Position numbers and translations under genes: made by a program. From contig RDXM01000101.1 in assembly GCA_004292595.1 (NCBI GenBank), positions 1-64,000 on the forward strand: 64,000 nucleotides of DNA, given 5' to 3'. The notes under the pieces were generated by a model that made no database searches, was not told the origin of the DNA, and worked only from the letters and a program-made list of their open reading frames with translations. Below are positions 42,678 through 44,540 of the stretch, in pieces. Numbering within the stretch: position 1 is the first letter of the stretch; each line of letters starts with the position of its first letter. Origin of the DNA: Candidatus Kapaibacterium sp. (GTDB lineage: Bacteria > Bacteroidota > Ignavibacteria > Kapaibacteriales > UBA4661).

Positions 42678-44540
42678 ATGGCTGAACATCTTACAAATAC
42701 TGACTCCGAGCAATACATCGTTACCGCCCGCAAATGGCGACCACAGCGTTTTGCCGATGTAGTCGGGCAGGAACACGTTTCGCGGACGCTGCGCAATGCG
42801 GTAGAATCGAAGCGGATTCACCATGCGTATATTTTCAATGGTCCGCGTGGCGTGGGCAAGACGACAACGGCGCGGATTCTGGCGAAAGCGGTGAATTGCG
42901 AAAATCCGAGTGCGGAATTTGAGCCGTGCAACGTGTGTGCGTCCTGCACGGACATCAACACCGGGCGGTCAATGGATGTGATTGAAATTGACGGCGCGTC
43001 CAACAACAGCGTGGACGACATCCGCAAGCTCCGCGAAAATGCGAAGTATCCGCCCGTCAAGGGGCAGTATAAAATGTACATCATTGATGAAATCCATATG
43101 TTGTCGAGTTCGGCGTTCAACGCGCTCTTGAAAACGCTCGAAGAACCGCCTCGCCACTTGCTGTTCGTCTTTGCCACGACCGAGCCGCATAAAATCCCCG
43201 CCACGATTTTAAGCCGTTGTCAGCGATTCGATTTTCGCCGAATGCAGATAGACGAAATTGCCGCACAACTGCGCCACATCTCGCAGCAAGAAGGTGTTTC
43301 GATTGACGATGAAACGCTTGCTATTATTGGCAAAAAGGGCGACGGCTCCATGCGCGACGCACAAAGTATTTTCGACCAAGTGCTGGCATTTTGCGGAAAA
43401 AATGTGGAATATGCTCGCGTGAACGAGGCATTAAACCTCATTGATACGGAATTTTACTTCACGCTGGGGCGGGCTATTCGTGAGCATGATGTGGCGAAAA
43501 TTTTGGAAATTGCCCGCGAAGTATTCATGCGCGGCTACGACCTGCAAGAGTGTCTGCATGGGCTTGCCGAGCATTTTCGCAATTTGCTCACCGTGCTGGC
43601 AACCCAAAGCGCGAGCCTGATTGAGGCTTCCAAGCTGCACCGCGAGCAGTACATGAGCGAATCCACCTACTTCACCCAAGCCGACGTGCTGCAATACATG
43701 ACCATCATCATGAACACCGAGCAGCAGCTTCGCTATGCCCCGCAGCCGCGTCTGCGCTTCGAGTTTGCGCTCGTGCAGATGGCAAAACTTGATTCCGCCG
43801 TGCTTCTCTCAGAACTTCTCGCTGAACTTGCCGAGCTAAAAAAAAAACTCCCTGAACTGAGGGAAGGGATAAAGGAAAAGGGCAAAGGGATAAAGGGGGA
43901 AGAGCAGAAAGAAAAGGATAACGTAGAAAGCTCGTCAATACTTGATTCTTCGCTTGTGGATGTTGCGCCAAATGATGGGCGGGAAGAGCTTTCTACGAAA
44001 CACATTTCATCAGAAAATCTGGTGGAATTAGCAGGAAAAATTCCGCTGCCGCAAGCACCAAAAGCCGCTCCGCGACGCATCACCGCAGCAATCCTGCAAG
44101 CAGAATGGCGCGAGGCACTGGAAGAACACGAAAAGTTGGATGCTGCAATACGAACCTACCTTCAAACACCAGCAATGGTCGGGGTTCAGTGCAACGACGG
44201 CGAACTTATTTTTTCGGTAAAGTCATACCTTATTGCCGATAAATTTGTAGAATGCAAGCAGCACTTGAGCGAGATTCTGAGCGCGGTGCTGGGAGGCGAG
44301 GTGCGTATTCGTGTGCTGGGTGCTTCGGACGGAGGCGGCGCAGCATCTGCTTTCCAAGATTTTGTGCAGAAGAACGACGAAGAAAGCACACCCCCAGAAA
44401 GCGCACCAGAACTTGCTGTGCAGGAACAAAAGCACATTTCTCCTTCGCTGGTAACAACACCTTCCGCCGCAGAACTGTACGAACTTGACCGCGCAATTAT
44501 TGAGCATTTTGGAGCAACGGAAATTCCTGTGCGGACGTAA
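42678..44540 (+). CDS. dnaX: DNA polymerase III subunit gamma/tau
   Basis: A 620-residue clamp-loader ATPase. Walker A is GPRGVGKTT (about residue 54), the zinc module has CNVCASC near 83, Walker B is IIDEIHM (about 135), and SRC with sensor 1 (FATTEPHKIP) follows. Domain III ends near 385. The region after it, about 388-450, is Lys/Glu-rich linker; then a C-terminal tau-like domain (about 455-560: AEWREALEEHEKLD) typical of tau tails. At 43838-43864 an A10 run and hairpin occur at the junction, where slippage would produce a 392-residue gamma-like form. ATG 42678 gives the canonical start, and upstream in-frame codons are not conserved. It is divergent from the M61 gene and convergent with fmt. 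Confidence 0.95.
   Translation: MAEHLTNTDSEQYIVTARKWRPQRFADVVGQEHVSRTLRNAVESKRIHHAYIFNGPRGVGKTTTARILAKAVNCENPSAEFEPCNVCASCTDINTGRSMDVIEIDGASNNSVDDIRKLRENAKYPPVKGQYKMYIIDEIHMLSSSAFNALLKTLEEPPRHLLFVFATTEPHKIPATILSRCQRFDFRRMQIDEIAAQLRHISQQEGVSIDDETLAIIGKKGDGSMRDAQSIFDQVLAFCGKNVEYARVNEALNLIDTEFYFTLGRAIREHDVAKILEIAREVFMRGYDLQECLHGLAEHFRNLLTVLATQSASLIEASKLHREQYMSESTYFTQADVLQYMTIIMNTEQQLRYAPQPRLRFEFALVQMAKLDSAVLLSELLAELAELKKKLPELREGIKEKGKGIKGEEQKEKDNVESSSILDSSLVDVAPNDGREELSTKHISSENLVELAGKIPLPQAPKAAPRRITAAILQAEWREALEEHEKLDAAIRTYLQTPAMVGVQCNDGELIFSVKSYLIADKFVECKQHLSEILSAVLGGEVRIRVLGASDGGGAASAFQDFVQKNDEESTPPESAPELAVQEQKHISPSLVTTPSAAELYELDRAIIEHFGATEIPVRT
43838..43864 (+). promoter_or_regulatory. dnaX: Probable frameshift/slippage site in dnaX
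   Basis: Ten consecutive A (43838-43847; zero frame CTA AAA AAA AAA CTC) are followed one base later by a hairpin, TCCCT (43849-43853) with AGGGA (43860-43864). A -1 shift gives ACT CCC TGA and stops at 43855. A +1 shift gives TCC CTG AAC TGA and stops at 43860. E. coli makes gamma by -1 frameshifting at A AAA AAG plus a hairpin, and Thermus thermophilus by transcriptional slippage at an A run. The placement here, directly after the ATPase/collar domains, is the same. Confidence 0.7.

Follow-up and report, generated by a model that had tools for sequence, protein, structure and literature searches.

A probable Thermus-type transcriptional slippage site in dnaX of a Candidatus Kapaibacterium genome

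Known dnaX recoding sites and the window

Production of gamma, the short form of DnaX, has been demonstrated in few bacteria, and the role of gamma is disputed. The closest described system is that of Thermus thermophilus, for which transcriptional slippage on a run of nine A's in dnaX is described (Larsen 2000, via PMC1088944 and PMC5009743). Tau is encoded there in one frame, the run is placed late, at seven-eighths of the gene, close stops follow it in both other frames, and any slip that is not a triplet yields gamma. A site of this type is characterized by mRNAs that differ in A-run length and by gamma and tau in a ratio of about 1:1. In E. coli dnaX, A_AAA_AAG serves as a strongly preferred -1 site (PMC5009743) and is accompanied by an upstream Shine-Dalgarno (SD) element and a stem-loop. 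Another arrangement was reported in the GeneTack study, in which 17 dnaX genes, including those of Chlorobi, had a two-ORF layout with runs of A7 to A10; A10 was the commonest, and transcriptional realignment was proposed (PMC3711429). Poly-A transcriptional slippage also gives two length variants of tssM in Citrobacter rodentium, where it is reported to rescue an interrupted gene (PMC4256274).

We analyzed a stretch of 64,000 nucleotides from Candidatus Kapaibacterium sp. (contig RDXM01000101.1, positions 1 to 64,000), referred to below as the window; it belongs to a metagenome-assembled genome from the Kapabacteria/Ignavibacteria side of Bacteroidota. Its dnaX gene has the layout described for Thermus: tau occupies a single frame, a run of at least nine A's lies past domain III, and close stops in both other frames are conserved, such that any non-triplet slip would likewise lead to gamma. 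The two differ in that the window has A10 rather than A9 and carries it at residue 387 of 620, which is 62% of the way along the gene; the lineage also belongs to a phylum other than that of Thermus, and slippage is here predicted from sequence. With E. coli, the window shares the gene, the junction past domain III and a -1 stop right after the site, whereas a longer pure A run takes the place of A_AAA_AAG, without an upstream SD or a stable and conserved stem-loop, and a +1 stop is close by as well. The two-ORF genes of the Chlorobi type are alike in having a poly-A run at the gamma/tau junction, but in these gamma is the default product and tau needs a slip, whereas tau is the default in the window and no zero-frame stop is found at the run. 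The tssM gene resembles the window in its poly-A run with two length variants, but is a different gene. Our literature search found no description of such a dnaX site in the lineage of the window. The kind of site is already known, and the lineage of the window is a well-supported new bearer of it.

The dnaX gene and its A10 run

All features described here are on the forward strand. The gene at 42678..44540 was identified as dnaX by TIGR02397, which it matched with 466 bits where the cut-off is 250. It encodes full-length tau in 620 codons of one frame, its orthologs in relatives are intact ORFs, and DnaX of the closest named relative (L083) is 98% identical. Pfam matches to PF13177 (delta2/AAA), PF22608 (lid) and PF12169 (domain III) place the ATPase, lid and domain III within residues 1-375 (42678..43802), with the last one stopping at residue 375; this portion would be retained in a gamma form. 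The A10 run occupies 43838..43847, exactly where the earlier note had located it. It begins in codon 387 and spans residues 387-390, just past domain III, in the frame CT[A AAA AAA AAA], which contains A_AAA_AAA heptamers, and CTC follows directly 3' of it. A plasmid origin of the region was considered and rejected, as no match was found.

Stops in both shifted frames had also been described, and both are present: a TGA in the -1 frame at 43853..43855, 8 nt past the run, and a TGA in the +1 frame at 43858..43860, 13 nt past it. The positions previously assigned to them, 43855 and 43860, are those of their last bases. The zero frame remains open for 690 nt beyond the run. The -1 frame would be entered by one extra A in the RNA or by a -1 ribosome shift, giving a product of 392 aa that ends in LKKKTP, and the +1 frame by losing one A or gaining two, giving a product of about 393 aa that ends in LKKNSLN. 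This codon reading agrees with the size of about 392 residues predicted earlier.

The A-run in the window dnaX exceeds chance. Counted over long ORFs in the window, 1.9% of Leu codons are CTA and 69% of Lys codons are AAA, and by this usage the probability of CTA AAA AAA AAA given LKKK is 0.006. Only 15 distinct A/T runs of at least 10 occur in the 4.6 Mb genome, and the dnaX stop pair (8 and 13 nt) is the tightest found at any coding A-run of A10 or longer in it.

Among near relatives, a run of A10 or A11 was kept in all 11 genomes compared, which comprised eight species of the genus, two other family members and G018 from another family, and it stayed in place despite strong divergence of the adjoining downstream sequence. 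The coding varied around it. In 9 of the 11 genomes CTA or ATA was followed by three AAA codons, the next base being C, G, T, or the A of ATT (which makes A11); in two genomes CTG or CTC preceded three AAA codons and ATT, and the tenth A was supplied by ATT. The rare CTA codon was retained in 8 of 11. Across all family members and G018, the distance from the run was 4-8 nt for the -1 stop and 4-25 nt for the +1 stop. Larger distances, which count against the proposed reading, were seen in one relative with the -1 stop at 21 nt (L042) and another with the +1 stop at 63 nt (L195). An alignment with relatives had been proposed as a check; run and stops proved to be kept throughout the family, and the loss in close relatives that had been named as a refutation was not seen there.

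We then compared 112 dnaX genes of the order with a null in which the synonymous codons of each gene were shuffled. A linker run of 9-11 A's was present in 47 of the 112 genes (21.5 expected) and, counting one genome per genus, which lessens the effect of shared ancestry and leaves it partly present, in 20.6 of 48 (9.5 expected). The distribution of run lengths was bimodal: 62 genes had runs of six or fewer, 3 had runs of 7-8 and 47 had runs of 9-11, with the 7-8 class depleted relative to the 16.8 expected. Stops were scored as counts within 24 nt of the run; 39 of 46 genes had them in both shifted frames, where synonymous resampling predicts 16.5. With one genome per genus the figures were 20.1 of 24 against 8.7, a value reached in no simulation, and a second set of named genomes, among them Kiritimatiellota and a Lentisphaerae bin, gave 14 of 21 against 3.1. 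Amino-acid composition accounts for part of the stops (the 8.7 of 24 genera expected). The +1 stop was enriched by itself as well (21.1 of 24 genera, 13.5 expected). The run occupies all three phases across genera and varies in position between residues 384 and 420, and the zero frame in the DNA is open beyond it in 46 of the 47 run-bearing genes. This comparison supports the view that selection has acted on both run and stops. The earlier suggestion that slippage in either direction would yield a truncated gamma is strengthened by it, as dozens of genera show more runs and more both-frame stops than synonymous codon choice would produce.

Proposed transcriptional slippage and alternative explanations

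We consider it probable that the A10 run in dnaX serves for programmed slippage of the Thermus type, through which one gene would supply both long and short DnaX. RNA polymerase would realign on the A-run and generate dnaX transcripts that differ in run length. Transcripts with 10 (or 10 ± 3n) A's would be translated into tau of 620 aa. In all others, translation in either wrong frame would end at a stop within 13 nt and yield a gamma-like protein of 392-393 aa, which comprises the clamp-loader module and lacks both the linker and the C-terminal domain. From the genomic pattern we infer that slippage takes place, that its route would be mainly transcriptional, and that gamma may accumulate and be used. 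Three observations favor the transcriptional route: the length threshold at 9, the enriched +1 stops and the lack of ribosomal stimulators. A mechanism working in the -1 direction only has no need of the +1 stop. With regard to length, A7 already supplies A_AAA_AAA to ribosomes, and nine is the length at which selection on slippage shows up in many bacteria (PMC1088944). A length threshold at 9 and two-frame stops may serve as sequence criteria for telling transcriptional from ribosomal recoding.

It is improbable, in our estimate, that gamma is instead made by E. coli-like -1 programmed ribosomal frameshifting on A_AAA_AAA, with the +1 stop being incidental. The heptamer is in frame and is a legitimate -1 site, the -1 stop follows the run at short distance family-wide, and dnaX of E. 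coli is laid out in the same way, the first stop past its site being at 5 nt in the -1 frame and at 37 nt in the +1 frame. However, A_AAA_AAG is absent from the window dnaX, where C follows the run, the threshold lies at 9 and not at 7, the +1 stops are enriched, and the usual stimulators were missing. No SD-like element was found in the 25 nt upstream of the run in the window or its family, and across the order an SD-like motif preceded the run in 5 of the 47 run-bearing genes; an upstream SD as stimulator was rejected. Downstream structure was neither conserved nor unusually stable, with a mean folding z of -0.14 among run-bearing genes. The 5-bp hairpin TCCCT-GAACTG-AGGGA to which the earlier note had pointed does exist (43849..43864, arms 43849-43853 and 43860-43864), but its standing as a component of the site was not upheld: its energy of -7.7 kcal/mol is ordinary (z = -0.07; 88 of 200 dinucleotide shuffles fold equally well), and its fold is common to the nearest species only (L004), other relatives having a different fold or none. 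It was therefore rejected as a stimulator and judged incidental. Ribosomes could still contribute, by shifting on A_AAA_AAA or by slow sliding on poly-A.

A second alternative, that the A-run is nothing but code for a lysine-rich linker, with run and stops as by-products of AT-rich codons and with no gamma, appears quite unlikely. It would fit the lack of the run in about half of the order's genera and the fact that AAA is the commoner Lys codon. It does not fit the rare CTA codon in most near relatives, the retention of A10 across phase shifts, or the results of synonymous shuffling, under which runs of at least 9 and two-frame stops are in excess and runs of 7-8 in deficit. Finally, a replication-slippage (phase-variable) site switching tau on and off between cells can be practically dismissed, for even though A10 tracts are mutable and one genome (G011) carries the other frame, dnaX is essential in the bacteria studied, so tau off-variants should be lost, the DNA frame is almost always open past the run, and run length is confined to 9-11.

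Gain, loss and reversal of the site, and other poly-A runs in the genus

Runs of at least 9 A's are missing from dnaX in about half of the genera of the order (the GC-rich families f2, f5 and f6, and others), which suggests that the device is dispensable. Parsimony on the DnaX tree required at least 17 changes in presence of the run, and 12 changes of phase were counted among run-bearing genes; these numbers suggest that the device was often gained, lost and re-placed. A_AAA_AAR sites occurred in just 2 of 65 run-less relatives, both as A7/A8, which indicates that run-less genes do not simply adopt the E. coli device in the linker. We also searched 395 Bacteroidota genomes with a pattern in which A9 was placed 60-90 nt past a conserved dnaX motif. 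It matched 12 genomes, of which six belong to the order and five to other parts of the class, while the twelfth, a candidate match, falls outside; a reversed control pattern gave chance matches in six other genomes of the 395. Beyond these, dnaX genes with A9 or A10 and nearby stops in both other frames were observed in Lentisphaerae and Kiritimatiellota bins (L131, L135, L156).

A reversed arrangement was found in G011 (L059, also L113), where A10 is followed by a zero-frame TAA that starts 9 nt and ends 12 nt past the run. No stop interrupts the -1 frame for about 215 codons more, and this stretch matches the C-terminal part of tau from the sister genome G091 (6e-10). This dnaX would accordingly make gamma by default and tau after a -1 shift at A10, whereas tau lies in the zero frame in the sister; the layout of G011 is the two-ORF type reported in Chlorobi. 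With its many gains, losses, moves and phase changes of the slip site, and the occasional reversal of the default product, this clade would represent a natural experiment on the retention of the short subunit.

Other poly-A runs were examined by listing all A/T runs of at least 9 genome-wide. In the genome of the window, 33 sense-A runs of this length fall within ORFs of at least 200 codons. Interior runs of A10 or longer were largely common to species: those of dnaX and of a GAF-domain protein were present in 3 of 3 genomes, and that of an amidase in 2 of 3. In ftsK (G000:C178:5558-5567; L075, L235; relatives L236-L240), an A9/A10 run lies in the linker between a 4TM anchor and the motor domain; six species of the genus retain it, in one or other of two phases, and a -1 stop invariably follows after 6 nt. 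The GAF-domain protein (G000:C190:4259-4272; L078, L251; relatives L252-L255) has A10-A14 ahead of its GAF domains in five species, which between them use all three phases, and a stop in the -1 frame follows after 3-8 nt. For an N-acetylmuramoyl-L-alanine amidase (G000:C32:8084-8339; L060, L359), the gene is split into two frames that overlap across A10 in the genome of the window; its relatives (L360-L365) mostly have one ORF, and several species retain A10 just ahead of the amidase domain.

These runs raise the possibility, which we regard as doubtful, that the genus uses poly-A slippage generally to release N-terminal modules (dnaX, ftsK, the GAF sensor and the cell-wall amidase) from linker runs of A9-A14. 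If true, the balance of short and long forms in several machines together would depend on the slipperiness of one RNA polymerase. The -1 stops of ftsK and the GAF-domain protein had synonymous P values of 0.45-0.86 and were mostly due to Asp-Glu or Asp-Lys after the lysines. Because acidic residues mostly explain these stops, the multi-gene idea is a lead only, and our literature search found no paper tying ftsK to slippage. Two histidine kinases also carried long runs: a receiver-histidine kinase (L378 in G004 and L397 in G006) had A11 at the receiver/HisKA junction with a +1 stop 7 nt on, and a 7TMR-DISM histidine kinase ORF (G000:C34:9505-9518, L062) had a T14 run in its 7TM part.
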